Source: Taxillus chinensis (lineage: Eukaryota; Streptophyta; Magnoliopsida; Santalales; Loranthaceae). From it: DNA of 64,000 nt. The translations under genes were made by a program, and so were the position numbers. Location: assembly GCA_023512835.1 (NCBI GenBank), contig CM042092.1, positions 26,857,543-26,921,542 of the forward strand, given 5' to 3'. Below the pieces are notes generated by a model that ran no database searches, was not told the DNA's origin, and saw nothing but the letters and a program-made list of their open reading frames with translations. Below are positions 5,208 through 35,432 of this stretch, in pieces (the stretch's first letter is position 1; each line of letters opens with the position of its first letter).

Positions 5208-5573
5208 TGTAAAGGCCCGTGCACTGTGTTAGGCCCGAATAGAGTTTGGAATATTTCTTCGACGAGTGTGGCCGAGCCTCGAGCGTTGAGTTATTATTAA
5301 TATTATTTTAATATTCGGGTTTGTTGATGTGCGTTATTATTATTATAATTATTTTAATATTTTGGGTCTACAATTATTATGATGTTAATATTATTAAATA
5401 TTATTATTTAAATATTTAAGTTGTTACATTGGAAATATTATTGTTACTACAAATATTTTAATATTGAGATGGTAAATTTTGATTATAACGTTATTAATTG
5501 TTAAAATGGATTATTATTATTATTATTATTACAATTTATATTATTGTTATTATTATTATGATTAATAAATTGG

Positions 5574-5580
5574 TATAAAA
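5574..5580 (+). promoter_or_regulatory. TATA box in G1 LTR
   Basis: TATAAAA within GGTATAAAAGGAGG, followed by an AAACCCTA-type stretch. Its position in the first quarter of the LTR suits the U3/R promoter. A functional start is inferred, not shown. Confidence 0.6.
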
Positions 5581-5863
5581 GGAGGAGTTAGGGTAGAAAC
5601 CCTACATTCCGTTTGGTGCACGATTTGACAGAGAGGCGCGAAGGGTTTGAAGTAACCGTTCAATCAACCTTTCCAAACCAAATCCAGGTAGGTGATTTTT
5701 GATTATCTCGTTATCTGGTGGCATGAACACGGAGTTAGAATTTTGTATCCATTGATTTTATGGGTCTGGATACGTATTGATTGTTTTAATACACTCGGAA
5801 GTGTATTTGGCGTTCGGCGTTGCGTCGTGTCGAGGATGCTATAGCGTGTCATCGGCGTTGGGT

Positions 5864-5955
5864 TCAGGCAGCGTCACGGGCGACAGTTTCAGGTAGTGTC
5901 ACGGGCGATGGTCTCAGGCGGCGTCACGGGCGACGGTCTCAGGCGGCATCGGGGG
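5864..5955 (+). repeat. 25-bp minisatellite in G1 LTR
   Basis: Three full units plus a partial one, each of the form TCAGGCGGCGTCACGGGCGA plus five bases. They sit in a GC-rich island inside an otherwise AT-rich LTR. The open frames across it are by-products of the 25-bp period and GC content. Confidence 0.8.
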
Positions 5956-7415
5956 TGCCGGTTGAAGCGCCACGGCCGGACTGTCGAGTCCTCGCGTGCC
6001 CGTGGAGATGTGTTGGAAGGGGAGAGCGGGAGTGGGCGTGGCGTCGGCATCGGCGTGGGCGTGGCGTGGGCGTCATGCGCGAAGAGAAGGGGAGCCGCCG
6101 TTTGTGCGCTGGATCGGAGGGGGCAGCGCTAGGTGCCGCCGCCCGGTAAGCCCACCAACCCTAGCGTTGGTGGGTGGGCTGGCTGCGCGCGCGTGTATAA
6201 TATTTATAATTATATATATATAGTTATTTATTAATATATATATATATGTATGTAAATGATGCTTAATATTCTTTTTAGTCAAGATGTAAGCACTTATATA
6301 TATATTATTTGGGATTTTTGTTATGACGTTGGAATTATTTAGATTTTCATGAATATTTTTGTTAGTTGATATGTTAAAAACACTTGTGGGGCTTATTATC
6401 ATAGTGTGAATAATTTTTTTTTAAAAAATTATTATTAAGCTTGATATGATCAATTTGGCATCTAAAAACAAAATTATTATCTACACCGTGATATCATCAA
6501 TTTGACATTAAGAATTTTATCTGGTGGCTTGATATTAATTGTTAGATAACCACACACATGCATTTACACATATGTATAGATTGTGGTTCGTTACTATTGG
6601 TTTGATGAACTAATTGTGATAGATTAATGTTATTTAATATGTGTGTAAGTTATGCGATGAAATTAGTTGGGTTAACCGTGGGTCCCACATAAGGTCGGGC
6701 AAGTGGCCACAGTCCCCTATGTGGCTGGTTAGCCCAAGTCCCCTATGTGGGAGGTTGTCGTTAGGGACACCATTGGTCCCACATATGGCGATCCTGGTAG
6801 TGATCTGTGTTCCCTGGAGTTGGTAGCGGGAATTCCATGGTTTACCAACGTGAGCCTTAAATGAGATGTAATGGTTTGTGTTTGGATGGTATTTATTTGT
6901 GTTGGAATGTGACACTACACAAGCACATGCATACACCGATCATATAGACCTAGGAACTTGAGTAAGGGATAGTGGAGATGGGAGTCACCTACTTGGTACT
7001 CGTGCTCACCCTACTTTATTTCTTTTTTTTTTGCTCCCACAGTCGTAGGAGAGTATTTGGTGGAGTCATAGCAGAGCTGGGTTGGAGCATTTTCGGTGTA
7101 GGGTTCGATTTGTGGACTTATTTTTTTTACCTTTGATTATTTATTTTCCGGACATGGGTCCGTGACGATTGTATTAACTCGGATAGGCTGGCCCTGTTAC
7201 TTTGTGTTATGGGTGTTAAATGAATTCAAGTAGTAATGATTACACCGATAATCATTGTTTGATTGCATGTATCCGGATCATTGGTAGGTACAATGCTACC
7301 CCGTTGTAGTATTGTACAGGAGTGGGTCGGTCTCCAACCCCTCCGCCCCTGGGAGTGGGCATGGGGAAGTCACATTCCTGGTTCTCGTGGGTTTCGGATT
7401 CCGGGGGGCGTGACA

Positions 7416-14296: not shown

Positions 14297-15199
14297 TGAC
14301 AGACAGATTTTTAGCCTCTCTAAAAGAGCTAGCTAATGTCGTTAAATCTCTCTTCAAGATAATAAATTCCCTAAGTTTGCACTAAAAGAATAGCAGCAAG
14401 CAAGGAGTCGAACCCACAGGGATTAGCCTAGTTTTCTAGTTCTCGAATCAAAACACCCAATTACTCTTGTTCTATAAAATGTCTTGGCAAAAAGTTTTCT
14501 TTTTTAAACTAAAGATTTAATTTTTATTTGGTTTTCTGAATAAACAAAGAAAGCACACTGATTTTAGGATTAAGATTCAAGGATTAAAAGCATCTAGGGT
14601 CACAATTTCACCTCCCTATGTTATCTCTACTGGTTCATGGTATTAGGGTTGTCTGATTGAAAACATGCTAAACATAAGCCAAGGACAACAAATGGTCATT
14701 AAGATCCTTTTAAGAGTTGTATGCCAGAATGGTCATCTAAACACACAAACATGCAAAGCCAGTAAATCATACTTGCAAAAGGATAATGATCACACCAATT
14801 ACAAATAAGTTATGAATCTCAATCCGCCCCAGACTAGGGCTAAGAATACCAAGGTGTACATCCAAAGATAGAATTAAGAACAGATTCATAAAACATGCAA
14901 AACTCAATCATCCAAACCCAATATTCATAAACACAGCAAAGCAACAAGGGAGCTACATTGCTCCCCTAGATTAAAAGACTACTCACGCATGATTACAAGC
15001 AAACACAAAGCAGAAAAGCTCAACATCTTCTTCTTATCCACGCGCACAGCAAAGCTTCAAATCCAGGCTCCAAAATCCGTGACGGTTGCTGCGACGGCTG
15101 CTCTCCTAGGTCAAGGAGCAACCTCCAAGTTGTGGAGCCTCGCTCTCTCTAAAAACGTGTAGGGGGGTCTAGCATCCATAGCAGAGGGCGTGGAGGCTG

Positions 15200-15208
15200 T
15201 ATTTATAG
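15200..15208 (-). promoter_or_regulatory. TATA box of Athila LTR
   Basis: Minus strand CTATAAATA, about 40 bp downstream (in element orientation) of the ATCAAAAC/GTTTTGAT repeat. The second LTR has the same box at 36169-36177. Confidence 0.65.
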
Positions 15209-15245
15209 AGGTTGGATGGGCCTTGAGGTGTGTACCCTAGCCCAT

Positions 15246-15271
15246 TTATCAAAACGGCATAGTTTTGATAA
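15246..15271. promoter_or_regulatory. Inverted repeat in Athila LTR promoter
   Basis: Arms TTATCAAAAC and GTTTTGATAA around spacer GGCATA. The second LTR copy (centre near 36226) has spacer GGCGTA. The inner 22 bp differ by one base from the repeat in the chromovirus B LTR (spacer GACGTA). Confidence 0.85.
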
Positions 15272-15395
15272 GTAACACTCGAAACTTTAAAATCTCTATC
15301 TTCCATCCACAATTTGGACATGGGCCTTCAGAAACAAATGATCAGCATGGAAAAACGATAGGATCGGTCCAAAAATATCTCTGCACATCAATTTG

Positions 15396-15520
15396 CACGT
15401 GATATGGTGAATTCACGTGCAGCTCCAAATCAGCTCAAACTTCTCCCCAAGCTTCCTTGCATCCTGTAGAGGCCTGAGAGGCAAAAATAGGCTTGCACGT
15501 GAAATGGGTGAATTCACGTG
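15396..15520. promoter_or_regulatory. Paired G-boxes of Athila LTR
   Basis: Two inverted pairs of CACGTG (15396/15414 and 15496/15515) in the pattern GCACGTGA...TTCACGTGC. In the other LTR the distal box of each pair is mutated by a C/T-type change (CATGTG at 36382, CACATG at 36483). G-boxes bind plant bZIP/bHLH factors; function here is inferred. Confidence 0.75.
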
Positions 15521-15791
15521 CAGCTCCAAATGCTCTGAGATTTCTGTGGTAGGTAGAGGACATCATTCTAAGAAACTTTTGTTCTTGCACGCTAATTGTT
15601 TGAGGCCATCTACTACGTCAAAAGTGAGCTCCAAAATCTGCCAAAACAGCTTAAAAGCGCATTTATTTGCACATAGCATCTTCCTAGGGGTTAGAGCAAA
15701 TATATATGATATATGAAGCAATAAGGCTCTAATCATGCTCTTTAACATCCTAAATAAACAATAGAATAACGGCATAAAATGCACGTTATCA

Positions 15792-17278
15792 AATATACCA
15801 CACTTGAACCATTGCTTGTCCTCAAGCAAAAACATACAAGCATGCAAAAATAAAATAAACACGCAGTCAAATGGAAGAAAAATAAAATAACAATCAAAGA
15901 GAATCATGGTTTCCTAAGCATGCAACTCTATCATGATGAAATGGGAATTTAAGCATCAAAATGAGTCATGACTTAGTTCATTCATGTCCATATCCCTAGT
16001 CCAACAACCATGCAATATCACCACTTAAATTTCAAATATGAGCAAGCAATCCATGATAAAATAGCACCTAGTTTCCCTTTAAGTTCTTACCAAGGATAAG
16101 CAGCCTCACTCAAATATAATAATTCTCAAGCCCAATACCTATCAATGAACAATGGATGGAAAACTCTATCTCTACACTCGCCATCAGCTATTGATTAAGT
16201 ACTTGCCAAGCAATCATGAGAGTTCCCTATTGTGCTCATCAAAGAAAACACACCCTCTATTCTACTTTATTTGAACTCACACTCTATTCTACTAACTCAA
16301 TAAACTCACATGAGCCAAAGAATTGAGCTCAACATTCTTAAAACAAAACACAATTCAGCCAATGTGGCTTCACAACTAAATAATCACACATATGAATCAA
16401 GCCAGTGTGGCTTTTATTCTGAATCTTTCTTTTCTTTTCTTTTCTTTTTTTTTCTTTTTTTTTTAGTAATAACCTTACAAGGTTGCATTTTATGCTCTCC
16501 CTTGATGTATTATTCACTCTTTTTTTTTACTCACATAACACATAAATAAGACTGATATTTCTAATGCATACCCCTTGCCATTTTGCTACATAAGGAGAGA
16601 CAGAAATTCTTTGATGTCTCACATCCCATTTCCCAATTAAGTGATGGCTTTTTCACATTCTATATCACAGCCTTTTATAATAATATCACAAAATAAAGAA
16701 AAGGATGCAAAGACAATCCACATGACTTAGAGGTCTTGCATCCTAACTCCACCAAACACTGAGCACTAACAAGTAATCACATGCTTACTTGACTCCTACC
16801 ATTAAATAACCAATGTTGAATGCAAGAAGAGTAGCAATTATTACCCATACCCTAAAATGGCACTCAAAGGCTAAAAGAAGTTGTTCTCATTTTTCATTTC
16901 TTTTTCACTCAACTTTAAGGGTTACTTAGGTCTATCATAGCATTTCATGCTCAGCTAATATTCAAAAATCAGCTCCAAAAACATGGTGATATCATTCAAA
17001 AGATAAAGTCATGATTAAACCAATTCAGAGCACATTTTAACTACTTTAACACCCTTATCACAACATGATACTAATGTGGCATAAAAAGTAAAATTTTAAG
17101 CCAAAATTGCATACTTAATATCCATGTCTCCACATGCAAATCATTCAGGCAAACAACTCAAACAATCATGCAACTAAAAACAGTTTTTTTTTAAAATAAA
17201 ACATGCAATCACAACATAAAAGACAAGCAAGTGGCTCAAGTCACTCCCCATACACCACACTTAAAATATGCTATGTCC
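15792..17278 (-). other. Athila non-coding region between env-like ORF and 3' LTR
   Basis: AT-rich, no supported ORF. Next to the LTR, on the minus strand, is the Athila/Tat-like tract TTGAGGACAAGCAATGG followed by TTCAAGTGTGG. A similar GAGGACATAGC...TTAAGTGTGG copy lies at 17250-17280 right after the ORF. A T/C-rich run (as read on +) is at 16424-16464. Confidence 0.7.
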
Positions 17279-17999
17279 TCATGGCATAAAATAGGGAGTA
17301 GGAAAATACTTACCTCTCAGTTGACTGCAGAAGAGGTCTATCTCGTCGCAGTAGAGATATTCATTCTCTGAGATCCTCTTTAGGCTAAAAGGGGTGAAGA
17401 TATCATTATCCCGTATAAAGCGAGCCCTCTGAACCATGGAATTGATGAACTCTTCAAATGCTGCTTGGCTCTCGTCAGATGATAAAACTAGATTAATGAT
17501 TAAATGGATAGGAGGGCCAAGAAGATCTTCACGTTCAGCAGGCATGTATGCACCCCAAGAGACAGGAAGTATAGCAGGCACAAGAGCCTGAGAATATGCA
17601 GGATCAGTAAAAGGCTGGAAGGGTGAATACCCTTCTACTGGCTTTGTCTCCTCTTGAGGCTGGAAGGGTGAATACCCTGTTGCTGGTTTTGCCTCCTCTG
17701 GGTGATAGTAGGATGGCCGAGCTGAAGGTTTTGGTTGAGGTGGATCAGCTTGGGCTGGATAAGAATCTTCAGGGGATGGAGAGGGTTCTTCATCAGATAT
17801 CTCCACTATAGGAGAACGTTTTGATGCTTTCCTCTTGCTCAAGGCCTTCCAGATTTTGCCTAGGAGGCCTTTGACTTCTTTATTGTCCTTCCTCAGGGCT
17901 TCCACCTCGCGCTGGGTTCTGGCATTTGCCTCCCAGAGCTGCTGTGTTTCTTGCCTCCAAGCTTCGGTAGATGCAGCAGGAGGAGCTTCTGGGGCTTCC
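17279..17999 (-). pseudogene. Athila env-position ORF, C-terminal part (split by C1)
   Basis: Minus-strand frame open from the C1 insertion site to a stop at 17279. Features are a helical part (TEAWRQETQQLWEANARTQREVEALRKDNKEVKGLLGKIW, in pieces) that may form a coiled coil, a Ser/Pro/Glu-rich stretch with two near-repeats of GYSPFQPQEE, and a tail with no membrane segment that I can see. Its N-terminal part is at 27897-28949, beyond C1; the CTTCC duplication shows they were one ORF. It lies where Athila env-like genes lie, but no envelope hallmark is visible. Confidence 0.8.
17995..17999. other. Target-site duplication of C1, left copy
   Basis: CTTCC directly before the C1 5' LTR; the matching CTTCC is at 27892-27896. 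Confidence 0.95.
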
Positions 18000-18100
18000 T
18001 GTAAGGACCCGTACCTTGAGTTAGTCACAGTTAGTCACAGTTTTGCCTTCTGAGTAGAGTTTTTCTAGATTTTGACCTAGTGAATGGGCTCAAATGAATT

Positions 18101-18309
18101 CACGTGCAAAAGGAAAGATGCTTAGAATGATGTCCTCTATCTACCACAGAAGTTTCAGGCCAAACGGACGTGTATGTGAGGTGCACGTGATATGGGTCCA
18201 ATTCACGTGCAAGTGTGGTTGTCTTCTAAATGATGCAAGGAGGCTAGGGGTGAAGTTTGAGAGCATTTGGAGTCCATTTGGAGTTGCACGTGAATTGGGA
18301 ATTCACGTG
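18101..18309. promoter_or_regulatory. G-box array of C1 U3
   Basis: Five CACGTG boxes, four of them in inverted pairs (18184/18204 and 18287/18304) with flanks GCACGTGA and TTCACGTGC. The order and flanking sequence match the B LTR and, more distantly, the Athila LTR. Confidence 0.8.
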
Positions 18310-18440
18310 CAAATTGGCGTGCAGCCATATTTTTGCATGGTTCCCTTGGTTTTGACATTCTAATGATCTTTCTCCAAAGGACCATGTTGAAATTCTGAGT
18401 ATTTTGGCCTATATGGGTGCGGAAAGGTGCTAACTTGTGT

Positions 18441-18499
18441 GATCAAAACTACGTCGTTTTGATCCTGGGTTTACTTAATCAAAACTACGTCGTTTTGAT
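18441..18499. promoter_or_regulatory. Tandem inverted repeats upstream of C1 TATA box
   Basis: Two copies of an 8-bp inverted repeat, ATCAAAAC and GTTTTGAT around TACGTC, separated by 14 bp. The first extends to 9-bp arms. Both contain ACGT cores. The same pair is in the C1 3' LTR (25867-25890, 25904-25925), the C2 LTRs and, with spacer GACGTA on +, the B LTRs. Confidence 0.85.
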
Positions 18500-18511
18500 G
18501 TGGGTAGTGTC

Positions 18512-18518
18512 TATATAA
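18512..18518 (+). promoter_or_regulatory. TATA box of C1 LTR
   Basis: TATATAA in GTCTATATAAGGAGG, about 13 bp after the second inverted repeat and shortly before the AGGGTTC and GA-rich leader. Confidence 0.75.
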
Positions 18519-19978
18519 GGAGGGCTTGAGTTTGAGTTTAGGGTTCTTGTGTTCTTCCTTGCTGCAGCTGCCGCCAGGAGAGAGAGAGAGAGAGAGAGAG
18601 AGAGGGTCTCCGGGCATTGCCGTGGTGGTTCGCGTCGTTGGGAGCGTCTAGCGTGGAGGTTAGGACAAAAGCCTGAGGTAGGGATTCATGTCCTTCCAAA
18701 CTCTCCTCTGTTTTAGGATATTCACCTATATATATTTATGTAAATCCATATAGGTGTGATCTCCTATATGGATGTTGGCCTTCGATGGCATGTTCTGTTG
18801 ATTTGATGTTGAATTTGGCCTGAGGATTTTCTCGGGTTTGTTTATGCACACTATGTGTTTGATGAAATGTCTAAGAGGTCTGCACACCATGTGTTTGATA
18901 AAATGTCTGTGAGGCCTGCATGCCATGTATTCAATATAATGCCTGTGAGACCTTGTATATGAGTGCTTGATGATATACCTGTGTGACTGGTGTGTACCGT
19001 GTTTGATTTGTATTTGATTTTTAGCCTATGAGGCTGATGTGTGTGACTTGTATCCGACCATGTTGGTCCTTCGAGATAAAGTGTAAATGCTTTGTCTTGA
19101 GTTTACATGTTGAGATGTAATGCTATGTCTTGTTTTGTTGATCTGTTTGAGACCGAGCTGAGATATGGGCCAGGCACAATAGCTGGACCCCTTTGAGATT
19201 TGGCCAGGACGTGGTCCTGAGTCTCGGTGTAGCACTCACGACGGTGGGCTAAGTCTACACCCATTCCTGAGGGTAGATATGGCGCCCGAGGAGGTGGTTG
19301 ACCATATCCGACTCGGGTGGAAAATGTTGCATTGGTGTCCATGCAACATTCGCCTGAATGTGGTATGTCATGTCGCCGTGGTGGCGGGGTGTCCTCTCGC
19401 CCTTCGGTGCGGGTTCGGGTAAAGAGTGTTTCCTGGGTGATGTTTGCTGCGTTAGCCTTAGGCACGACACGAGCACAAGCATACACATATCATGCATGTT
19501 GTACGGCGGGACGGGTCCGGGGAGACGGGATCCCTACCGAGCCGTGGTTTGCTCACCCCTCCTATAAACCGTTCTTTTGCGGGGGTTTAGCGGCGGTAGT
19601 GTGAAGGTCGAGGAGCTAGGCCCCCGAGGCTGAAAGTTTTATATTATTTCCTTTGTTGTACTCTGGTTTTATGTGTTTGGATTTTGGTTTGGTTTTATTG
19701 ATGGCTTCATAGGGGTTTTTCCCCGACTGGGTTGTAATGAACATTTAGTCTTTGAAATGAAATAAAATGAGATGTTGTTATTCAATTTGTGTTTGTGTGC
19801 ATGGTTTGGGAGCAAGGAGCATGCCCCTTGGCATGTTAGCCTGATTGTGCAAGGTTTGGGACAACACCCGTGCTAGAAGTCCTTTTAAGGTGCTTGCACC
19901 AACCCCTTGTCCCTTCGGGTGCGGGCATGGGCGATCACTACTCATTTCCAAGTGGAAGGAAATTGGGGCGTGACAATA

Positions 19979-19990
19979 TGGTATCGGAGC
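19979..19990 (+). promoter_or_regulatory. C1 primer-binding site (initiator Met tRNA)
   Basis: TGGTATCGGAGC, three bases after the 5' LTR. One base differs from the initiator-Met complement TGGTATCAGAGC seen intact in C2 at 49714-49725. Confidence 0.9.
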
Positions 19991-20424
19991 GATAGTTCAT
20001 GGTCTAGTGGACCTAGGATAGTGGGGAGGCCTGGGCGCTTCGAGACTCTTGGGAGGCGGTATAGGACACGCCTGATCAACGTGGTCCTATCTGGTTTTCT
20101 TGGGGTGTACTCGGGGGTAGTTAGACCAAGGAGTAGGGCACTTGCATTTGGGTTGAGGGTGCATACATGCATTGGCATTAGGGCACTAGTTTAATTTCGA
20201 TATGAGTATTGTGATTGGACATGCTATGTTGCTTTGAAACTTGTTCTTTGTGAAATTCGGTGATTTTCTCGTGAAGCTTGTTGCTATGAATTGCTTTGTG
20301 TACTTCGTGATTTACCTGTGTGTTTAAATGTAAAATGTTGCTTGAGTACCTCATGGCCCATGGGGATGAGGGTGTGTAGAGCTTGAGAGAAGCCGATCCT
20401 AGTTTGGTTTAAATTATGTAGACT

Positions 20425-21560
20425 ATGCCTCCTAGGAGAGTAACCCGAGCTACTCCAGTGTAGAAGATGAATCTTCTGCCCGTCTTTGGAGAGGGAAGAG
20501 GACAGCGTGTAGAGGGCGATGATCCCCTGGAGCGGATCATGGCCCAAGTCCGGGCCCTAAGTGAGAACGTGCAAGGCATGCGTGAGGACCTCGGGGGAGA
20601 GATCCTAAACGAGGTGCGTCAGGAGATGATGGCACGACAAGCGGTGCCACCCCCTCCACCCCGTGAGGCAGAACCTCCGTGTAGGCGGGAAGTGCCGGTG
20701 AGGCGGGAAGAGGGAGACGTGTTGACGCAGCTTCCGAAAGGAACATCCACCGAGGTTCAAGGGAGGAGCCGAACCTCTAGGAGCAGAGCACCGGCTGCGG
20801 CGGATCGAGCATGTGTTCTCCTTTCTTCGACCCCGGGAGGAAGACAAAGTGAGACTAGCGATCCGGCGATTGGAGGAGGAAGCCTTGGAATGGTGGCTTA
20901 GCATCTCAGGAAGCCGGGACATGGAGACCATGGCCTGGAATGAGTTCCTCCAGTGTTCCATGAGGAGTTCTTTCCAGAGTCATTGCGGTGGCGAAGCGGG
21001 AGGAGTTCGGCGGCTTGAAGCGGGGATCGCGCTCGGTGGCGAGTATGAGCGAGATTTCCGGGGCTGAGTCGGTTTGCTCCAGAAGCAATATCAAGGGAGG
21101 ACCTGAAGGCCCATAAGTTTACCATGGGTCTCAAACCTGCCCTTAAGCAAAGGGTGGAGATGCTGCGGTCGAAGACCTATCTTGAAGTCGTGGACACCGC
21201 CAAGATTGTTGAGAGGGGATTAGAGGAGGGAAGACAGGCTCACCAGGAGCGGATGGGGCGAGCGCGCACGACAAGCACGGTGAAGCCAAGAGGCGAAAGG
21301 TTGAGCCCGGCGGTGGGACTTTTCCCAAGGATAGGGGCCAAGCTTCAATGGCTCCGCCCAGATCCCGTTACTTTGGAGGACAGGGGAGTCTTGCCGGGAA
21401 CTTCCCAAGCGGGTGTACCTGTTGTGGCTTATCAGGGCACGTCAAACGTGAGTGCCCCAAGCAACACTTGACGTGTCATAGCCGTGGGAAGGTGGGACAC
21501 ATCAGCAAGGTGTGTTTCGGCAAGGGGAACACCTGGGGAGCTGGAAGCTTAGCACAAGGG
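20425..21560 (+). pseudogene. C1 gag, broken
   Basis: The ATG at 20425 (MPPRRVTRA) is followed within 15 codons by a TAG; the main frame resumes at 20467. Capsid-region blocks (EEALEWWLSISGS, LKPALKQRVEMLR) are read in several frames. A first zinc knuckle CTCCGLSGHVKREC lies at about 21413-21454. The second, CHSRGKVGHISKVC, has Arg in place of its second Cys; C2 shares that change while B keeps Cys. At least four frame changes occur. Confidence 0.85.
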
Positions 21561-21610
21561 AGCAAGGGTGGGACCCAATTTCAGGCCCCAGCCCCTAAGC
21601 CAGCACATTC

Positions 21611-22290
21611 GTGGCGGGCCGGTCGGCTGGTTCCGGTCACACTAGGCCACGGGGGGAGAGGCAACCACAAGGAGGATCGGAGGGGCGTCCCAGGTGGACT
21701 GCGGCGGGAGCAAAAGGGAAGGCAAGTGAGGCCGGTGGTGGGGCAAGCCAAGGCGAGTGTTCGCGCTTACCTCGGCACCAGGCTGAAATGGAGGATTTAC
21801 CATCACCCTCCGAGGAAGGTGGAGCTGGACCTTCGGTGGTTCGAGGTACTATTCTAATATCCCGCACCGTTGTTGCCGCATTGTTTGATACCGGAGCTTC
21901 GTGCTCCCCGATTGCTAAGTCCTTGGTGGAGAGCCTTGGACTTGATTGTGTGGAGGCTGATAGACCTCCGAGGGTCGAGTCCCCAATGGGAGGAGTGGAG
22001 TTGATCCACCAAATGTGTCGAGAGTGTGCGCTTACGATAGGAGAGGTTGACCTCTCATTTGATTTGTACGTAATGCCCATGAGGACCTTTAGTTTGATTC
22101 TGGGGATGGATTGGTTGATGGCCTTTCAGGCTAAGATTGACTGCTATAGGCGACGAGTATCGTTTACTACACCCACAGGATCTTCCTGTACCCTAGTGGG
22201 TGAATGGGATAGGGATCTTTGGGAGAGGCTGGACCGACGAGGGAGCTATGGGGCAATATTACCCATAGGCTTGCCACCCTAACCTTTGAG
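21611..22290 (+). pseudogene. C1 protease domain
   Basis: Frame open at 21611-22282 (223 codons) with the retropepsin motif FDTGASCSPI (catalytic Asp codon 21887-21889) and later FSLILGMDWLMAFQAKIDCY. It would release Gag and Pol proteins. The frame then shifts into the reverse transcriptase linker ([20 protein letters not shown]) near 22220-22450. Confidence 0.88.
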
Positions 22291-23135
22291 GAGGAAGGTA
22301 ACTTAGAGAAAAGGGTGTGGCCAGATGTAGTCGAGAATTTCCAGGATGTCTTTCCTGGGGAGTTGTTGGAGTTGCCTCCACATAGAAGTATCGAGTTCAC
22401 GATTGAATCGTTGCCAGGGGTGGGACCCATCTCACAAGTAGCATACCGGATGGGACCTGCTGAGTTGCGGGAGCTTCGAGCAGATAAAGGAACTGGGAGA
22501 TAAAGGTTTTATCCGTCCTAGTACCTCACCTTGGGGTGCACCGGTCTTGTTTGCTAAGAAGGCCGATGGTTCGTTGCGACTTTGCATTGATTATCGAAGG
22601 TGAATCAAGTAACGGTAAAGAACAAGTACCCTTTGCCGCGGATTGATGACTTATTCGACCAGTGAGTGGAGCACGGTGGTTCTCAAAAATCGATCTGCGT
22701 TCGGGATATCACCAATTGAGGGTCGGGAGCGAGGACATCCCTAAGACGGCGTTCAGGTGCGGATACGGACACTATGAATGGTTAGTGATGCCTTTTGGGC
22801 TCACGAACGCACCTGCTTGTGTTCATGCACCTAATGAATCGGGTATTTGCCCCATACCTGGATTCCTTCGTGGTGGTATTCATTGACGACATCCTTGTGT
22901 ACTCCAAAACCCAAGCCGAGCATGAGGAGCACTTGGGCGTGGTGCTGCGCAGGCACTACGAGATCATCACTTGTATGCTAAATTTAGCAAGTGTGACTTC
23001 CGGATGCGAGAGGTGCATTTTCTTGGGCATGTAGTATCTGCCGAAGGAGTTAGAGTGGACCCAACCAAGATTGAGTCCGTAGCATCTTGGAAGAGGCCCA
23101 CAAATGTTTTTGAGATCCGGAGTTTCTTGGGTCTA
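22291..23135 (+). pseudogene. C1 reverse transcriptase, broken
   Basis: Blocks in order: [17 protein letters not shown] (near 22543), [12 protein letters not shown], a frame change at 22662, [26 protein letters not shown], a frame change, [12 protein letters not shown] with catalytic Asp codons 22885-22890, another frame change, then [14 protein letters not shown] and [11 protein letters not shown]. The break at 22656-22672 (DLFDQ then TGA) is shared exactly by C2. Confidence 0.9.
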
Positions 23136-23760
23136 GCAGGGGTATTACCGGCGTTTTGTGGAAGGGTTTTCTCGGTTGGCGGCACCTATGACAGCTCTTA
23201 CACGGAAGGGAGCCAAATTCGAGTGGACGGACAAGTGCCAGCAGGCATTCGAGGAGTTGAAGACTCGCCTAACTACTGCACCGGTGTTGAGTCTACCGCA
23301 GGAGGGAGTGTCATTCGAGGTGTATTGTGATGCGTCTCGCGTTGGACTGGGGTGTGTTCGATGCAAGAGCGCCAAGTCATAGCGTATGGCTCGCGACAGC
23401 GAAGTCCCATGAGCAAAACTACCCAACACACGACCTGGAGTTAGCAGCGATTATTTTTGCCCTGAAGTCTTGGCGACATTACCTGTTGGGAGAGAAATTT
23501 GTGGTATATACCGACCACAAAAGCCTACGATATATCTTCACCCAGTGAGACCTAAATTTGCGACAACGGAGGTGGGTCGAGTACCTGCAAATGTTTGACT
23601 TCACGCTCTCCTACACGCCTGGGAAAGGAAATTTAGTGGCCGACGCGCTAAGTAGAAAAGGGAAAGCCGAGGTTTCCATGAGAGAATGGAAAATGATGGA
23701 GCGGTTGGCGATGCTTCGGTGCAACCTGCTTTCAGCGATGAGGGAGCTATCCTGTGTCCT
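23136..23760 (+). pseudogene. C1 RNase H, broken
   Basis: Reads [15 protein letters not shown] (first catalytic Asp near 23329), [39 protein letters not shown] followed by a TGA at 23547, and [20 protein letters not shown]. Frame changes occur near 23140 and 23360. Confidence 0.88.
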
Positions 23761-24665
23761 CTCACCGTGATACCAGAGTTGTATCGGCGTGTCCGTGAGG
23801 GACAGTTAGGCGACGTGGATCGTGAGGGTGATCCGGGCCCAGATAGAGGCCGGAGAGCCGTCGGAGGACCGGACAGAAGGAGTTGAGCATGAGCTGAAAT
23901 TTCGGGGCGTCCGATAGTACCACCTCCCTTGCGTGAGGATGTGCTGAGGGAATTTCATCATTCCCGTTTGGCTGTACATCCAGGAGGCACTAAGATGTAT
24001 CATGCCGTTCGCGCACAGTTCTGGTGGCCGGGGCTGAAACGGAGCGTAGCAGAATTTGTTTCCAGGTGCCTTACCGTCGGCAAGTGAAGGCGAACACCAA
24101 CGACCCGCTGGTCAATTGCAGCCTTTACCTGTAGGCGAGTGGAAGTGGGAGCATATTACCATGGACTTCGTGACGGGACTTCCTACCACTTCTGGGAGAA
24201 AGGACATGATTTGGGTCATAGTGGACCGCTTAACTAAGTCAGCCCATTTCTTGGCAATTCGAGAGCGCGACTCTATCGGCACGTTAAGCCAGATGTATGT
24301 TGATGAGATTGTCCGCTTGCACGGAGTGCCCTTGTCTATTGTTTCGGACAGGGATGTGCGGTTTACATCCCGGTTTTGGGGAGGTCTGCAGGAAGCATTG
24401 GGAACCCGACTTAATTTGAGTACCGCATTCCATCCTGAGACTGATGGTCAGCCCGAGAGGACCATCCAAACATTGGAAGACTTGTTGAGGGCTTGTGTAC
24501 TCGATTTTGGAGGATCATGGGCTTCCCACCTTCCTCTGGTGGAGTTTGCCTATAATAACAGTTACCAGTCTTCGATTGGGATTTCCCCGTTTGAGGCATT
24601 GTATGGCCGACCGTGTCGGTCTCCATTATGTTGGGCAAAGCTGGAGAGGCAGCTATGTTAGGACC
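23761..24665 (+). pseudogene. C1 integrase, largely open
   Basis: The zinc-binding part (EFHHSRLAVHPGGTKMYHAVR to RQVKANTND) lies at about 23945-24100 with one base missing around 24072. The core is open at 24056-24661: [13 protein letters not shown] (first Asp), [15 protein letters not shown] (second Asp) and [14 protein letters not shown] (Glu). This is the most complete enzyme domain of C1. Confidence 0.9.
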
Positions 24666-25249
24666 TCAATTGGTCCAGGAGGCTACGGCAAAAGTTCACG
24701 ATTGATTCGGCAACGCCTTCTTACGGCTCGGAGCGGACGAAGTCTTATGCGGATCGCCGACGCCGACCGTTGGAGTTTTTGGTGGGAGACCACGTATTCC
24801 TTCGTGTTTCTCCACGGAGAGGGCATAAGAGATTTGGGACTTGGGTCCAAGTTGTCCCCTCGGTACATTGGACCGTTCGAGATTTTGAGCAGAGTTGGAC
24901 CTGTTGCTTATAGGTTGGCATTACCACCTAGTTTGAGCAGAGTTCATAATGTTTTCCATGTATCCCGGTTCCGGAAATATCATCCGGATCCCACACACGT
25001 GCTAGATTGGGGTACCCTGGATCTTGGAGAGGATGTGTCATTTGTCGAGGCCCCCATCCGTATTGTAGATAGGCGTGAGAAGCGCTGCGAGGTAAGACTA
25101 TTCCGTTGGTTCGGGTGTTGTGGCAACACCGAGGGCTGGAGGAAGAGACCTGGGAACGTGAGACCGAGATGCGTGCTCATTATCCTAATCTGTTCGAGGA
25201 CGAACAACTCGAAGGAGGGGAGGAGGGCAAGCATCAAACTTCAACATAA
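24666..25249 (+). pseudogene. C1 integrase C terminus, chromodomain-like
   Basis: Reads [28 protein letters not shown], then [34 protein letters not shown] and, after a frame change near 25090, a region matching C2 [17 protein letters not shown] and EETWERE. Stop TAA at 25247-25249. The HPDP/TWE pattern is that of chromovirus C termini. Positions 25250-25384 after it are non-coding. Confidence 0.8.
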
Positions 25250-25390
25250 TCAGGTACTTGCCCAACTAGTTATGACCATATGGAGTGTATAAATGTGTGA
25301 AATAATTTGTGATTTGTTGTGTATTAATTTGTGCTAGAGGGTGTTAGGGGCCTATGCTTTGGTTGTGATTGTTTTCTTTCATTCCACCTT

Positions 25391-25427
25391 TTCTTTTCGA
25401 GGACGAAAAGTCTTAAGGGGGAGAGGA
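25391..25427 (+). promoter_or_regulatory. C1 hairpin and polypurine tract
   Basis: Inverted repeat CTTTTCGAGGACGAAAAG, then TCTTAAGGGGGAGAGGA directly against the LTR start at 25428. The TTCGAGGACGAA core repeats the coding end of pol at 25191-25206. Confidence 0.85.
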
Positions 25428-25998
25428 TGTAAGGACCCGTACCTTGAGTTAGTCACGATTAGTCACGGTTTTGCCTTCGAGTAGAGTTTTTCTAGATTTT
25501 GACCTAGTGAATGGGCTCAAATGAATTCACGTGCAAAAGGAAAGATGCTTAGAATGATGTCCTCTATCTACCACAGAAGTTTCAGGCCAAACGGACGTGT
25601 ATGTGAGGTGCACGTGATATGGGTCCAATTCACGTGCAAGTGTGGTTGTCTTCTAAATGATGCAAGGAGGCTAGGGGTGAAGTTTGAGAGCATTTGGAGT
25701 CCATTTGGAGTTGCACGTGAATTGGGAATTCACGTGCAAATTGGCGTGCAGCCATATTTTTGCATGGTTCCCTTGGTTTTGACATTCTAATGATCTTTCT
25801 CCAAAGGACCATGTTGAAATTCGAGTATTTTGGCCTATATGGGTGCGGAAAGGTGCTAACTTGTGTGATCAAAACTACGTCGTTTTGATCCTGGGTTTAC
25901 TTAATCAAAACTACGTCGTTTTGATGTGGGTAGTGTCTATATAAGGAGGGCTTGAGTTTGAGTTTAGGGTTCTTGTGTTCTTCCTTGCTGCAGCTGCT

Positions 25999-26036
<38 letters not shown>

Positions 26037-27891
26037 CTCCGGGCTGTTGCCGTGGTGGTTCGCGTCGTTGGGAGCTGTCTAGCGTGGAGGTTAGGACAAA
26101 AGCCTGAGGTAGGGATTCATGTCCTTCCAAACTCTCCTCTGTTTTAGGATATTCACCTATATATATTTATGTAAATCCATATAGGTGTGATCTCCTATAT
26201 GGATGTTGGCCTTCAGTGGCATGTTCTGTTGATTTGATGTTGAATTTGGCCTGAGGATTTTCTGGGTTTGTTTATGCACACTATGTGTTTGATGAAATGT
26301 CTAAGAGGTCTGCACACCATGTGTTTGATAAAATGTCTGTGAGGCCTGCATGCCATGTATTCAATATAATGCCTGTTGGGTCTCTAACGTCCCATGGATC
26401 AATCCCACATCGGTTAGGGCGAACATTGAGGTCGTCCTAATGAGGAGGCTCATGTGCACCTTATCACAACGCGTTTTAATGGGTCGCGGCCCGTTAGAAA
26501 CAAATCCGTGCGGGCTGCGGCCCATGGGTGGGTGCGTGAGTGCCAAAGCGGACAATATTGTGATAGTGAGTGCCCTGGCCGAGGTCCAACAAGTGGTATC
26601 AGAGCCGGGTCCTCTAGACCGATGGTGGGATTGGGGGGGGAGACTGTTGGGTCTCTAACGTCCCATGGATCAATCCCACATCGGTTAGGGCGAACATTGA
26701 GGTCGTCCTAATGAGGAGGCTCATGTGCACCTTATCACAACGCGTTTTAATGGGTCGCGGCCCGTTAGAAACAAATCCGTGCGGGCTGCGGCCCATGGGT
26801 GGGTGCGTGAGTGCCAAAGCGGACAATATTGTGATAGTGAGTGCCCTGGCCGAGGTCCAACAATGCCTGTGAGACCTTGTATATGAGTGCTTGATGATAT
26901 ACCTGTGTGACTGGTGTGTACCGTGTTTGATTTGTATTTGATTTTTAGCCTATGAGGCTGATGTGTGTGACTTGTATCTGACCATGTTGGTCCTTCTGAG
27001 ATAAAGTGTAAATGCTGGTCTTGAGTTTACATGTTGAGATGTAATGCTTATCTTTTCTGTTGATCTGTTTGAGATCGAGTCGAGATATGGGCCAGGCACA
27101 AATTGGACCCCTTTGAGATTTGGCCAGGACGTGGTCCTGAGTCTCGGTGTAGCACTCACGACGGTGGGCTAAGTCTACACCCATTCCTGAGGGTAGATAT
27201 GGCGCCCGAGGAGGTGGTTGACCATATCTGACTCGGGTGGAAAATGTTGCATTGGTGTCCATGCAACATTCGCCTGAATGTGGTATGTCATGTCGCCGTG
27301 GTGGCGGGGTGTCCTCTGCCCTTCGGTGTGGGTTCGGGTAAAGAGTGTTTCCTGGGTGATGTTTGCTGCGTTAGCCTTAGGCACGACACGAGCACAAGCA
27401 TACACATATCATGCATGTTATACGACGGGACGGGTCCGGGGAGACGGGATCCCTACGAGGCCGTGGTTTGCTCACCCCTCCTATAAACCGTTCTTTTGCA
27501 GGGTTTAGCAGGCGGTAGGTGAAGGCCGAGGAGCTAGGCCCCCGAGGCTGAAAGTTTTATATTATTTCCTTTGTTGTACTCTGGTTTTATGTGTTTGGAT
27601 TTTGGTTTGGTTTTATTGATGGCTTCATAGGGGTTTTTCCCCGACTGGGTTGTAATGAACATTTAGTCTTTGAAATGAAATAAAATGAGATGTTGTTATT
27701 CAATTTGTGTTTGTGTGCATGGTTTGGGAGCAGGAGCATGCCCCTTGGCATGTTAGCCTGATTGTGCAGGTTTGGGACAACACCCGTGCTAGAAGTCCTT
27801 TTAAGGTGCTTGCACCAACCCCTTGTCCCTTCGGGTGCGGGCATGGGCAGTCACTACTCATTTCCAAGTGGAAGGAAATTGGGGCGTGACA
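25428..27891 (+). repeat. C1 3' LTR, carrying a TRIM
   Basis: 2464 bp, of which 489 bp plus a 5-bp duplication are the TRIM at 26374-26862; without these, 1970 bp against 1976 bp in the 5' LTR. Same ends, G-boxes, inverted repeats, TATA (25938-25944), GA run (about 26002-26031). Differences from the 5' LTR concentrate at CAG/CTG-type sites. Confidence 0.95.
26374..26862 (+). mobile_element. TRIM: 489-bp miniature LTR retrotransposon
   Basis: Two 218-bp LTRs (26374-26591 and 26645-26862), both TGTTGGGTCTC...CCAACA, that look identical by eye. The 53-bp interior holds only a primer site TGGTATCAGAGCC (26594-26606) and a G-rich polypurine tract (26629-26644). Exact 5-bp duplication ATGCC (26369-26373, 26863-26867). 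It has no coding capacity and must use proteins of other elements. Identical LTRs imply a recent insertion. Confidence 0.96.
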
Positions 27892-27896
27892 CTTCC
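27892..27896. other. Target-site duplication of C1, right copy
   Basis: CTTCC directly after the C1 3' LTR, matching 17995-17999. Confidence 0.95.
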
Positions 27897-28949
27897 CATG
27901 CTCTAGGAGATGCATGAGCAGCTACGTCTGGGGCCTCCCATGCTCTGGTTCTAGGTTGTGAAGTAGCTTGTTGGTCTCCAGAGATGAGGGCCATTAATTC
28001 TTCAAATTGGGCACTAGTGATGTGCCGATTAGTGACTGCCCAATTGATGACCTCCACTTCGCTCACCACCTGCCCACTAATGCCTTGAAAGAAATTGAAA
28101 ATATCTTCTTTGTGTACATTGAACTGCATGTACATGGTAGTGAGTCTGTATAGAGTCTGCTTCCTTTGATCCAAATGAGGAGAGGTTTCCCTTGCAAAGT
28201 CAGTGGATCTGGTACTGATCCCCAAACCCCCTTCAGCATGCAATACTCTTAACACCCAGTGAGAAGGAAAAGTGATGCTATCCATGGAGGAAAAATGCAA
28301 AGCAGGCATGCTTTGAAATATCAAACACAAAAATCTGCCATTTATCTGCTTTGATGTGTTTTTCTTCCACTATTTAAAAATGGTAGTGGCCCAATCCACA
28401 TTTAGCATATGATCAACGCTATACATCAACTCCATGTGTGGCTTAGGCACACTATCTATCCCACTGGTCTGAATCAATAAGCATTTCCCTATCAGGTAGG
28501 CTAGGCATCTAAATCTTCCAACAAAACCATTCTTGGTATACTGCCTTCGACTTTGAAATTTTCTAGCATAGTTGCATGCAGTACCAAATTCTCCTAGACT
28601 TAGGCGAGGAAGGCTATCACCTGGGTGCGGGGAGGTTAAAGCAATGTCTAATAATTTCAGGGGTAATTCGACATAAACCCCTTGCACGACCCCTATCGGT
28701 TCATCCTCACTCACAGAGACGATGCATAAAATTCTTGTAGGCAGAATAGGAAATAGCTGGGCAAGGCGATACTATCCTTTGTAATCCCATATTTTGAATT
28801 TTAAGAGCCACCTCTCTAGCCCAGCCCGGCTACGAAGCCTCCAAAGCCTGCATATCAAGAGCATGCCCCAAGAGTATCTCCTCCTCAGGTTGGCTATCAG
28901 CACTAGGTGAGTGCACCTCCTCCTGGCCAGTCCTCCTTGTGCGCACCAT
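27897..28949 (-). pseudogene. Athila env-position ORF, N-terminal part (split by C1)
   Basis: The minus-strand ATG at 28949 (MVRTRRTGQEEVHS) is followed by frames 28714-28370 and 28330-27897 after an early stop near 28830 and a break near 28370. Blocks VYVELPLKLLDIAL, GRFRCLAYLIGKCLL and PHMELMYSVDHM recall the plant transposon-protein-like domain also seen, more distantly, in the copia extra ORF (YRCMATILSRYLLAR, YDLLLAMYSI). It is cut by C1 and continues at 17999. Function unknown; env-like by position only. Confidence 0.78.
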
Positions 28950-29600
28950 CTTTGAAATGAGAATAAAGAGCAAAGAGCAGAAAACTGAAGAGCAAGAGAG
29001 CAAAAGAGCAGAGTTTCTTTAATACTCAGATCTGGAGTGATTTTGGTGTGGAAGCCTTTGAAGATGGCCTCTCTTTATATAGCGTGCAGAAGGAAAGATG
29101 CTCCAATTGACGTGATACACATGCCCCTAAATTTTCAGAGTGTTCTGACCAAAATATCCCTTGCACGTGAATTGGTTGAATTGGCGTGCAGGTCAGAATC
29201 GTCCCAAACTTTGGTGGTGGGTCCTCCTTGAGCTGGCAAGCAATAGTCCCTTTTGCACGTGAATTGTTTGAAGCTTCTAGGAGGGCTAAAATCGGTATTT
29301 TGCATTTTTGAGCCATCATATGACAGCTAGCAAATCGCGTGCAAGAGTAAACGTGATTTACATGGTCTTCATCTACCATTCTAGAAAGTTACAGCTCAAA
29401 AGGAGGTGCACGTGAATTGGGCAATTCACGTGCAAATTCACGTTCAGGCCCAAACTGGCCCAAATTTCTCCACTTTGTTGCTTGTGCATTATGGACCATC
29501 TTTAAGTCTTGCACGTGAATTGGTTGAGCCCATTTTCAAGCACTTTTGGGCTTCACTTGCTCCTTGCTCCTTGACTTTGACTTTAAAAACAATTCCACAA
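28950..29600 (-). promoter_or_regulatory. Candidate internal promoter upstream of Athila env-position ORF
   Basis: On the minus strand TATATAAA (29074-29081, inside GCTATATAAAGAGAGG) lies about 125 bp before the ORF start at 28949. Beyond it are five CACGTG boxes (29164, 29256, 29409, 29427, 29512), one pair inverted (29409/29427), resembling the G-box array in LTR U3 regions. The TATA-to-ATG part is rich in GCTCTTT repeats, like a leader. No frame of the element needs this stretch for coding. Promoter function is inferred. Confidence 0.55.
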
Positions 29601-29804
29601 GTTCAGGACCCAATAATTTGCTCATCCTGCAAATGTTTAGTTAAGAAAGAAGCAAAGTCTCCTGCACAATGGTTAGCTTGCAAACAAATTTATTGAATAA
29701 AATAAATAAAAGAAAATAACATAAAATAAAACATAGCAATAAACATTGGGTTGCCTCCCAACCAGCGCTTTATTTAAAGTCTGTAGCTAGACTTTCAGTT
29801 ATGA
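29601..29804 (-). other. Athila post-pol spacer
   Basis: Non-coding. On the minus strand it contains GGTTGGGAGGCAACCC (about 29748-29763), a sequence commonly found just after pol in Athila/Tat elements. Confidence 0.65.
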
Positions 29805-31184
29805 TCATGCAATGGTGAAAAAGAGGGAATCAACTATCTCCCTCTGAGTTGAATCAAAGTATGGTTTCAGTCTGTTGCCATTCACCCAAAATTTCTTGCC
29901 ATCTACAGCTTGGAGCTCAAAGCTCCCATATGGCTTCTTATCAACTATCACAAAAGGTCTCATCCACTTGGACCTTAATTTTCCAGGAAATAACCTCAAC
30001 CTTGTGTTAAATAGAAGAACTTTCTGCCATAAGGTTAAAGGTTCATTGTTGAGTTGCCTATCATGCCATTTCTTAGTTCTTTCTTTGTAAAATTTAGCAC
30101 TATCATAGGCATCCAGCCTAAACTCATCTAACTCAATTAATTGAGTCATCCTAAGCTCCTTGATCTCTTGTGGGTTAAAATTTAACTTCTTCAAGGCCCA
30201 ATGAGCCTTGTGTTCTAGTTCCACAGGCAAGTGACATGCCTTACCATATAAAATACGGTAAGGTGACATCCCAATGGGAGTTTTGTAAGCTGTCCTATAT
30301 GCCCATAAGGCTTCATCAAGCCTTTGAGACCAATCTTTCCTATTGGCTCCAACAGTTTTCTCTAAAATGGCCTTAATCTCTCTGTTGGACACTTCTGCTT
30401 GTCCATTAGCTTGTGGGTGGTAAGCTAAAGACTTCCTATGAGTGTCACCATACTTATTCAATAACTTGTCAAACAATTTGTTGCAGAAATGACTACCCTC
30501 ATCACTAATTATAGCCCTTGGTGTCCCAAAAAAGCTAAAGATGTTCCTAGTAAGGAAGTGAGTCACAACCCTAGCATCATTCACTCTAGTAGGAATAGTT
30601 TCTACCCACTTAGACACATAATCCACAGCAAGCAAAATGTATGAATACCCATAAGAATTGGGGAATGGCCCCATGAAGTCAATGCCCCAAATGTCAAAAA
30701 TTTCAACTGGAAGGATTCCAGTTAAGGGCATCTCATTTTTCCTAGACAGACCACCTACCCTTTGACATCTATCACACTTTTTGATGTAGACATAGGTGTC
30801 TTTCACCATGTGAGGCCAATAGAAGCCACACTGCATGATTTTAGCCACAGTTCTTTGCACCCCAAAGTGGCCCCCATAATGTGATGCATGACAATGATGT
30901 ATTATGTCATCTACCTCCTCCTCAAGGACACACTTTCTAATGTTTTGGTCTGGACACCTCCTATAGAGAATTGGGTCTTCCCAAATGAATTTCTTAGCAT
31001 CCACTAACAATTTCTTTCTCTGGTGGTAGTCTAACTGCTTGGGTATGAACCCAGTGGCTAAATAATTTGCTATGTCGACAAACCAAGGAAGATGATGCAC
31101 CTCAAACAACTTCTCATCAGGAAAGTCATCTATAATGGGTAGAGACTTAGGTGCATTCTCCACACAGGAGAGGTGATCAGCCAC
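29805..31184 (-). pseudogene. Athila integrase, 459-codon open frame
   Basis: Longest intact enzyme domain in the window. The minus-strand frame 31184-29805 begins with the RNase H end (MADHLSCVE). The zinc-binding HHCC region is [13 protein letters not shown] to [11 protein letters not shown], and the core has [11 protein letters not shown] (Asp), [12 protein letters not shown] (Asp) and [13 protein letters not shown] (Glu), so the catalytic triad is kept. It ends in a [17 protein letters not shown] C-terminal domain. No chromodomain. It would insert element cDNA, but it is not in frame with the upstream domains because of a stop near 31230. Confidence 0.93.
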
Positions 31185-31514
31185 GGAATTTAGGGCTCCC
31201 TTTGTGTCTCTAATTTCAAGGTCAAATTCCTATAAGAGGAGAACCCACCTAATCAAGCGTGGCTTAGCTTCTTTTTTAGCAAACAAATATTTCAATGCAG
31301 CATGATCGGTATAAACAATGACTTTAGACCCCAAAAGGTAGGGTCTAAACTTGTTGCGACCATAAACCACGGCTAAGAACTCTTTCTTAGTGGTGGTATA
31401 GTTCGTTGAGCATCATCTAAGGTCTTACTAGCATAGTAAATGACCCTAAACACCTTTTCTCGCCTTTGCCCTAAGACTACCCCCACAAGATAATCACTCG
31501 CATCACACATTAGC
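31185..31514 (-). pseudogene. Athila RNase H, broken
   Basis: Minus strand, short frames read MCDASDY (first Asp near 31509), VIYYASKTL, then after a frame change near 31405 [43 protein letters not shown] near 31229 separates it from integrase. Confidence 0.85.
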
Positions 31515-32437
31515 TCAAAAGGCCGAGCCCAGTCCAGGTGTGACTATAACAGGTGCGGTGACTAACTTACCCTTGAGGATGTTGAAAGCTTCTAAGCAAT
31601 CTGCATTAAACTCAAAGCTTGTGTCTTTTTCTAACAACCTACTCATGGGTTTTGCAATTTTTGAGAAGTCCTTAATGAATCTCCTATAAAAGCCAGCATG
31701 GCCAAGGAAACTTCTCACTCCTTTTTCATTGGTTGGAGGTGGTAGTGTCTCAATAGTAGAGATTTTTGCCTTGTCTACCTCCAAACCATGTGCAGACACC
31801 TTGTGCCCTAGAACTATCCCCTCAGTTACCATGAAATGACATTTCTCCCAATTTAGGACTAGTTTCTTCTCCTCACATCTCTCTAAGACCACATCTAGAT
31901 TTTTCAAGCACTGTTGGTAGGAGGAACCAAACACCGAGAAGTCATCCATGAAGACCTCCATGATCTCCTCAACTAAACCCTGAAAAATGGCCATCATACA
32001 CCCTTTGAAAGGTGGTAGGAGCATTACAAAGCCCAAATGGCATTCTCCTAAATGCAAAAGTGCCAAAAGGGCACGTGAAGGTGGTCTTTTCTTGGTCCTC
32101 GGGTTTAACCATGATCTGATTATACCCGGAATAGCCATCTAAAAAGCAAGAGTGACTATAGCCACTAACCTATCCAACATTTGGTCATTGAAAGGAAGAG
32201 GAAAATGATCCTTCCTAGTAGCCTTGTTCAGCTTTCTATAGTCAACACACACTCTCCACCCCGTCACGGTGCGAGATGGGATCAATTCATTTTTCTCATT
32301 TTTAATCACGGTCATGCCCCCTTTCTTGGGCACAACATGCAATAGACTCACCCACTCACTATCGGAGATAGCATAAATTATACCCGCATTTTTCCATTTT
32401 AAAATTTCTTTTCTAACAACTTCTTTCATGGCAGGGT
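31515..32437 (-). pseudogene. Athila reverse transcriptase, broken
   Basis: Frame 32429-32139 reads VVRKEILKWKNAGIIYAISDSEWVS, VVPKKGGMTV and GWRVCVDYRKLNKATRKDHFPLPF. Frame 32138-31515 reads the catalytic VFMDDFSVFG (near 31937-31966), LVLNWEKCHFMV, GHKVSAHGLEVD and SFLGHAGFYRRFIKDFSKI. Two frame changes between 32160 and 32010 remove the frame through the middle blocks. FMDDFSVFG is the Athila/Tat form of the catalytic motif. Confidence 0.92.
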
Positions 32438-35412: not shown

Positions 35413-35429
35413 CCCCGGCAACGACGCCA
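35413..35429 (-). promoter_or_regulatory. Athila primer-binding site (Asp tRNA type)
   Basis: Minus strand TGGCGTCGTTGCCGGGG, three bases after the 5' LTR. One base differs from the usual Athila/Tat primer site TGGCGCCGTTGCCGGGG. Confidence 0.88.
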
Positions 35430-35432
35430 ATT

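Follow-up and report, generated by a model that had tools for sequence, protein, structure and literature searches.

The locus considered here, a 64,000-nucleotide stretch of Taxillus chinensis DNA (C9:26857543-26921542; hereafter the window), raises the question of how retrotransposons of two deeply separated lineages came to carry a similar promoter region. The window is plant DNA built of nested long terminal repeat (LTR) elements, including an Athila element and the Tekay-type elements A, B, C1, and C2. The sequence similarity between Athila and the B and C elements in the unique 3′ region (U3) of their LTRs is real and homologous. The reading that we favour, with a probability of about 0.72, is that an upstream control block of approximately 390 bp was transferred once between the Athila and Tekay chromovirus lineages in a plant ancestor, and was then kept and separately diverged. 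So clear an instance of mobile elements having a promoter in common is unusual, and one lineage probably took the block from the other long ago.

In the sense of the elements, positions ~160–545 of the Athila LTR are collinear with positions ~58–464 of the B and C LTRs, a span of ~390 bp of U3 (hereafter the module; coordinates are given in Table 1), with an ungapped identity of 72–74% and a Kimura two-parameter (K2P) distance of 0.32–0.35 over about 370 columns. BLASTN aligned the Athila 5′ LTR with the C1 5′ LTR at 70.6% identity over 340 columns (E = 8e-41), and with B at 69.7% over 343 columns (E = 5e-36). Unmasked module alignments scored 143–171 versus a maximum of 34 in 500 dinucleotide shuffles, 58–67 standard deviations (sd) over the shuffled mean. 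After masking of the G-box, ACGT, and inverted-repeat boxes, the scores were still 53–70 versus shuffle maxima of 29–34, or 15–21 sd over the mean, which argues against the possibility, raised with the original prediction, that the alignment reflects base composition once the boxes are hidden. Control tiles from the rest of the window (270 comparisons, both strands, the eight LTRs excluded) reached at best 49, at the G-box array described below, and 28 when masked. The homology ends before the TATA box, and the first 160 bp of the Athila LTR and the repeat and unique 5′ regions (R-U5) lie outside it. The R-U5 of Athila scored 25 and 20 against those of B and C, with shuffle means of 21.9 and 21.8 and maxima of 30 and 28, i.e., no homology was detected there, and the alignment is confined to U3.

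The order and places of the motifs noted on first inspection were recovered in all eight LTRs of the window, while their orientation was right only in part: C1 and C2 do read on the plus strand, but the sense strand of Athila and B is the minus strand and not the plus. The 27-mer CTTAGAATGATGTCCTCTAYCTACCAC, which contains no G-box, is present exactly in all eight LTRs (chance expectation 0.00), and its distance to the GATGCAAGG block in element sense is 109 bp in Athila and 109–111 bp in B and C. The TATA box had been listed as an item of the shared order; it does stand at a similar distance from the 27-mer (364 bp in Athila versus 388–391 bp in B/C, element sense), but the sequences around the TATA boxes cannot be aligned. 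The ATCAAAAC..GTTTTGAT inverted repeat occurs in two copies in B and C and in one copy in Athila, and exact CACGTG boxes number five per B/C LTR, four in the Athila 3′ LTR, and two in the Athila 5′ LTR, the remaining boxes of which carry mutations. The best-kept parts of the module are motif-like, namely the 27-mer (26/27), the inverted repeat (21/22 in the Athila 5′ LTR), and the G-box pairs. The block probably acts upstream as an activating region to which host G-box-binding factors bind, and both lineages would answer the same host signals.

The Athila coding pieces are of the Ty3 type (Pfam gag, RVT_1, H2C2, and rve), and their reverse transcriptase (RT) motif FMDDFSVF is present in a Prunus protein too. 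The Athila primer-binding site (PBS), TGGCGTCGTTGCCGGGGA, is of the TGGCGCCGTTGCCGGGGA type, which we take to correspond to tRNA-Asp and to be a defining trait of the Athila lineage. Elements B, C1, and C2 have a PBS of the TGGTATC type, presumably that of tRNA-Met, and Ty3-type pol pieces, with an RT in C2; in the scanned pieces of C1 and B, where the reading frames are broken, Pfam matched SH3_Tf2-1 and not a chromodomain. The RTs stand far apart, as predicted: amino-acid identity is 25–31% between Athila and Tekay (51% in another 37-residue stretch) and 60–79% among the Tekay-type pieces. Between the two lineages, the relatedness of the RTs shows in protein alone. An RT tree was built from the window sequences and 12 public plant proteins, hand-picked among the matches listed (120 of ~8,000 scored, per query). 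Athila groups with Helianthus, Prunus, and Trifolium proteins, and A, B, and C with Lupinus, Nicotiana, and Cucumis proteins, the branch between the two groups being 1.30 with a support of 1.000.

Within the Tekay group, A falls outside B + C2 (support 0.828), and the pol DNA identity to C is 68–69% for A versus 71% for B. The A LTR contains none of the motifs CACGTG, ATCAAAAC, and GTTTTGAT, and yielded no alignment with the U3 of B, C, or Athila, only short scores of 20–26. The chromovirus G1, which had been said to lack the module, is taken here to be element A. The LTR segment and the RT are in conflict, since the module groups B and C with Athila and not with A, while the RT gives (A,(B,C2)) far from Athila. 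A survey of 82 typed polypurine-tract places on genome contig C1 (not to be confused with element C1) up to 9.36 Mb found the exact 27-mer behind the tract in none of the 12 A-type places, in 23 of the 66 of B/C type, and in 1 of the 4 of mixed type; mutated 27-mers count as misses, so that these figures give a contrast and not a frequency.

A search of the whole genome (521 Mb, 264 contigs) revealed 12,864 occurrences of the 27-mer with up to three mismatches, while a reversed-pattern control gave 0; 1,169 occurrences had the exact Athila form. Forty copies were fetched from the first 100 listed (14 of 20 Athila-form and 26 of 80 Tekay-form, hand-picked, all on genome contig C1). All 14 Athila-form modules lie in Athila U3, and 13 are accompanied by some Athila R-U5; likewise, all 26 Tekay-form modules lie in Tekay U3, with downstream sequence of C-type in 12 and of B-type in 14. 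In a tree built from the eight window LTRs, all 26 Tekay copies, and three out of the 14 Athila copies, the modules form two clades matching lineage (branch 0.50, support 1.000), with mostly modest support within Tekay. Since among these copies each form was met only in its own lineage and the modules fall into two clades, the pattern suggests a single old event, after which each lineage evolved on its own, and would fit this better than ongoing, recent, or repeated swapping. Beyond this genome, the module search gave 0 matches in viral contigs and, at first, 0 in genome contigs; a single 20-mer match in a bacterium (L096) was taken as chance. Protein-guided scans of viral contigs confirmed nothing, the second query open reading frame (ORF) being partly out of the pol frame.

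As a separate observation, many Athila-form probe matches on genome contig C1 (G000:C1; e.g., L024, L025) lie ~5.0 kb apart on one strand, with 14 spacings of 5.0–5.5 kb versus 13 of 11.5–12 kb, although two probes may double-count one pair. The ~5.0 kb spacing suggests a short non-autonomous Athila family sharing the LTR.

The module diverges slowly in Tekay elements. Among nine Tekay LTR pairs, chosen for the exact 27-mer in both LTRs, it showed 16 differences over 3,642 site pairs (0.44%), R-U5 305/11,418 (2.67%), and the remaining U3 84/1,728 (4.86%); a tenth pair was excluded for its misaligned R-U5 (module 5/405). The three Tekay pairs of the window, not chosen for the 27-mer, gave 3/1,230 in the module versus 111/3,857 in the comparison sequence, and three further Tekay pairs chosen via near-identity are uninformative on the module rate. 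The quiet stretch covers Tekay LTR positions ~51–550 (e.g., 18050–18550), with far fewer differences between the LTRs of an insertion than the remainder of the LTR has on average. No slow module was found in five Athila pairs, with 36/1,663 differences in the module (one pair having 123 module sites only) and 14/799 in the upstream U3; the Athila R-U5 gave 54/3,072 in four pairs, L094/L095 being set aside for a misaligned R-U5 (334/3,762 in all five), and the window Athila pair alone gave 11/385 in the module versus 18/735. Between 12 C-type copies and C1, the module differed at 112/4,863 sites (2.3%) and R-U5 at 1,204/16,210 (7.4%), a smaller contrast than within insertions.

A minor base known from other copies was involved in 16 of 22 module differences, as gene conversion would give, and recurrent mutation could do the same. 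CpG content alone was rejected as an explanation of the slow Tekay module, since differences are reduced alike at CG, CHG, and CHH sites and among transversions. Quietness equal to that of the module is found in some R-U5 bins, so that the rate varies along the LTR generally, and the quietness could result from gene conversion, mutation rate, or assembly polishing of a ~10,000-copy sequence. Between B and C, identity is 94% in the module, ~71–73% in pol, and 40–63% per 100-column window in R-U5 (78% in one window). Because the Tekay module is slow even between the LTRs of single insertions, the 94% cannot by itself be read as a second swap, and with the modest tree support within Tekay a second recent B–C exchange of U3 is not claimed.

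The Athila element also carries an internal G-box array upstream of the ORF that follows pol at the env position. Five of the seven CACGTG boxes in 9,749 bp of Athila interior fall within 560 bp (binomial 1e-5); in element sense the array is followed by CTATATAAAG, and the ATG of the post-pol ORF lies 133 bp past this TATA. The region was matched at 94–98% in all five fetched Athila copies, with a gap of ~110 bp in L083. The exact TATA string is present in four of them and not in L082, and these four have 4–6 CACGTG boxes in the stretch read and an ATG 133–142 bp past the TATA. In a genome search, 40 of 1,459 candidates were scored, all at least 96%. The array is a candidate internal promoter in sense orientation. 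It was rejected as a further homologous copy of the module, the scores being 39–66 versus 20 unmasked and 20–26 versus 20 masked, which is chance; it is treated here as a motif array and not as module homology. The start and pieces of the post-pol ORF are visible, but its frames are broken and it is split by C1, whose insertion point (17999/27892) lies within this region; the piece at 17279–18028 has no Pfam match.

Some further features of the window were noted. The 3′ LTR of Athila exceeds its 5′ LTR by 168 bp, and the longer form is found also in the fetched pair L088, L089. Two small elements resembling terminal-repeat retrotransposons in miniature, at 26373–26863 (within the C1 3′ LTR) and 63182–63666, each have a TGGTATC-type PBS flanked by direct repeats, of 220 bp in the first and 196 bp in the second. 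An ORF at 9946–11019 on the minus strand has a weak match, under the curated cut-off, to PF20167 (plant transposon protein), and nearby sequence is related to 60228–63168.

Table 1. Elements and modules in the window (TSD, target-site duplication; IN, integrase).
Feature	Position	Strand	Details
Athila element	14297..36759	-	LTRs 14297-15791 and 35433-36759; PBS 35412-35429; gag, RT, IN pieces on minus strand; interrupted by C1
C1, Tekay-type element	18000..27891	+	TSD CTTCC; nested in Athila
B, Tekay-type element	41893..60215	-	LTRs 41893-43611 and 58495-60215; TSD TTACG; interrupted by C2
C2, Tekay-type element	47750..57111	+	TSD GCCAC; nested in B
Element A LTR	5208..7415	+	Tekay-type relative without module; A pol 2277-4987
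U3 module, Athila form, Athila 3′ LTR	15247..15632	-	Alignment to B/C U3; 27-mer 15546-15572; inverted repeat 15248-15269
U3 module, Athila form, Athila 5′ LTR	36215..36600	-	Alignment to B/C U3; motif positions
U3 module, Tekay form, B 3′ LTR	43123..43553	-	Alignment and motifs; both inverted repeats included
U3 module, Tekay form, B 5′ LTR	59728..60158	-	Alignment; motif positions
U3 module, Tekay form, C1 5′ LTR	18070..18499	+	Alignment; motif positions
U3 module, Tekay form, C1 3′ LTR	25497..25925	+	Motif positions
U3 module, Tekay form, C2 5′ LTR	47819..48246	+	Motif positions
U3 module, Tekay form, C2 3′ LTR	55218..55648	+	Motif positions
Athila internal G-box array and TATA	29060..29620	-	Upstream of post-pol ORF

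The original prediction that one lineage acquired the promoter of the other is supported in part, by the homology, its restriction to U3, the distance between the RTs, and the absence of the module from the sister element A; the sample of copies favours a single old event. Since A is without the block and Athila has in addition the internal G-box array, we infer a gain in the ancestor of the B and C families of Tekay, with an Athila-like element as the likelier donor. The route could have been a double template switch in minus-strand synthesis, first to the foreign 3′ end by way of R/U3 and then away again close to the polypurine tract, which would put the foreign U3 into both LTRs at once; each lineage would have retained the TATA box, R-U5, attachment ends, and PBS that it already had. 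At a substitution rate of 1.3e-8 per site and year, a K2P distance of 0.33 would give a very rough age of 13 million years, assuming neutrality on both sides; a slow Tekay side would make it older.

Several points weigh against this reading. The block has either crossed lineages or been lost elsewhere, and since one genome was examined, gain in B/C is not firmly separable from loss in A; the support placing A outside B + C2 is moderate. Out-of-frame residues in the RT pieces of Athila and B make the branches of these two longer, and all 12 proteins from public data were chosen from each query's own matches. The internal array, which was argued to favour Athila as the donor, resembles the U3 module in boxes only. 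Among 69 exact Athila-type PBS places on genome contig C1 up to 37.3 Mb, 43 had neither of two exact module probes 0.9–1.7 kb upstream and 26 had one, by probe matching only. Both ends of the homology are blurred, fading within U3, and no strand-transfer signature was seen there; together with the nesting seen here and the difference in PBS type, this leaves room for recombination at the DNA level.

Such an exchange, in which the U3 block was moved by illegitimate recombination or ectopic gene conversion after a nested insertion, without co-packaged RNAs, would have the same product today, and we consider it possible, if only tentatively. It would require replacement in a still-active copy and then spread to both LTRs; reverse transcription fills both LTRs automatically. 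A Tekay element nested in Athila is directly visible in C1, the homology ends neither at R nor at the polypurine tract, and the difference in PBS types would make shared packaging less likely. In grasses, a paper on centromeric retrotransposons (CR) proposes nested insertion with illegitimate recombination alongside template switching (PMC4079200). Independent capture by both lineages of a host promoter or another repeat seems improbable: the 40 copies read were all within Athila or Tekay LTRs, although they come from the first 100 listed of ~12,900 places, and neither terminal inverted repeats nor target duplications were seen by eye at the ends of the stretch. Insertion of a miniature inverted-repeat transposable element into both LTRs was rejected on the same visual inspection of the homology ends.

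Vertical descent from the common ancestor of Athila and Tekay, with the module held by very strong constraint, would agree with the slow divergence of the Tekay module and with the motif-like nature of its best-kept parts. However, the Athila modules are not slow, the RT split is 1.30 substitutions per site against a module K2P of 0.33, and A, whose pol is only slightly farther from C than that of B, has nothing that aligns with the module; such an origin is therefore very improbable. Even less credible is convergence, i.e., independent selection of identical boxes by the same host factors. G-box and ACGT-core motifs are indeed frequent in plant promoters, but the collinear similarity survives box masking by 15–21 sd, which refutes this explanation, the spacing is kept within 2 bp over 109 bp, and the G-box-free 27-mer is 26/27 identical.

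A U3 block common to Athila and a chromovirus, whose RTs are about 30% identical, would imply that promoters can move apart from their elements over a large part of Ty3 diversity; regulation of its own could then not be assumed for each retrotransposon lineage, and LTR-based classification might mislead. Signals that silence or activate one of the lineages would also reach the other. A wider picture, in which the block is a portable promoter cassette between deep lineages, with a second Athila promoter at the env position, homogenisation in thousands of Tekay copies, and ~13,000 co-regulated sites, is rather unlikely as a whole. No report of exchange between Athila-type and chromovirus lineages was seen among the papers listed by searches of an open-access library, judged mostly from the listings, and the only match to the module sequence there was an insect transcriptome paper.

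Related phenomena are known from other systems. In soybean, Du et al. (2010) reportedly described LTR swapping between an autonomous element and its non-autonomous relatives, where, as here, a regulatory LTR stretch is said to be common to elements with differing coding parts and template switching was proposed; here, the partners are two lineages with RTs 25–31% identical. Grass CR elements have recombinant LTRs from two subfamilies, and the recombinants are prolific, but all partners are within the CR family, unlike the Athila/Tekay pair (PMC4079200). Recombination among co-replicating plant elements during transposition bursts is described for ONSEN, where the elements are members of a single family (PMC5668417). 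Endogenous pararetroviruses in plant genomes exchange noncoding regulatory stretches and show concerted evolution, but this occurs between an autonomous virus and its non-autonomous partner (PMC5491270). For Drosophila rover, LTR exchange is known within the family or lineage (PMC12992720), and for the wheat WSW partnership it is suggested that an element changes partner through LTR sequence transferred by either gene conversion or template switching (PMC9744471).

The internal array invites comparison with Sireviruses, for which Bousios et al. describe palindromic repeats at two places, in the LTR ahead of its TATA box and ahead of the ENV gene (PMC2829016). Athila shares this layout, its two motif arrays preceding the LTR TATA box and the env-position ORF; however, Sireviruses are Ty1/copia elements with a CGG-CCG core in all but one of 13, while the Athila element is of the Ty3 type with a CACGTG core, and that text describes no homology across lineages over a long stretch as found here (PMC2829016). 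The Athila array, by analogy, would work like a Sirevirus array, but it is not one. In the papers considered, LTR exchange is documented within families or between close partners, and the sharing of a U3 block by an Athila element and chromoviruses goes further.

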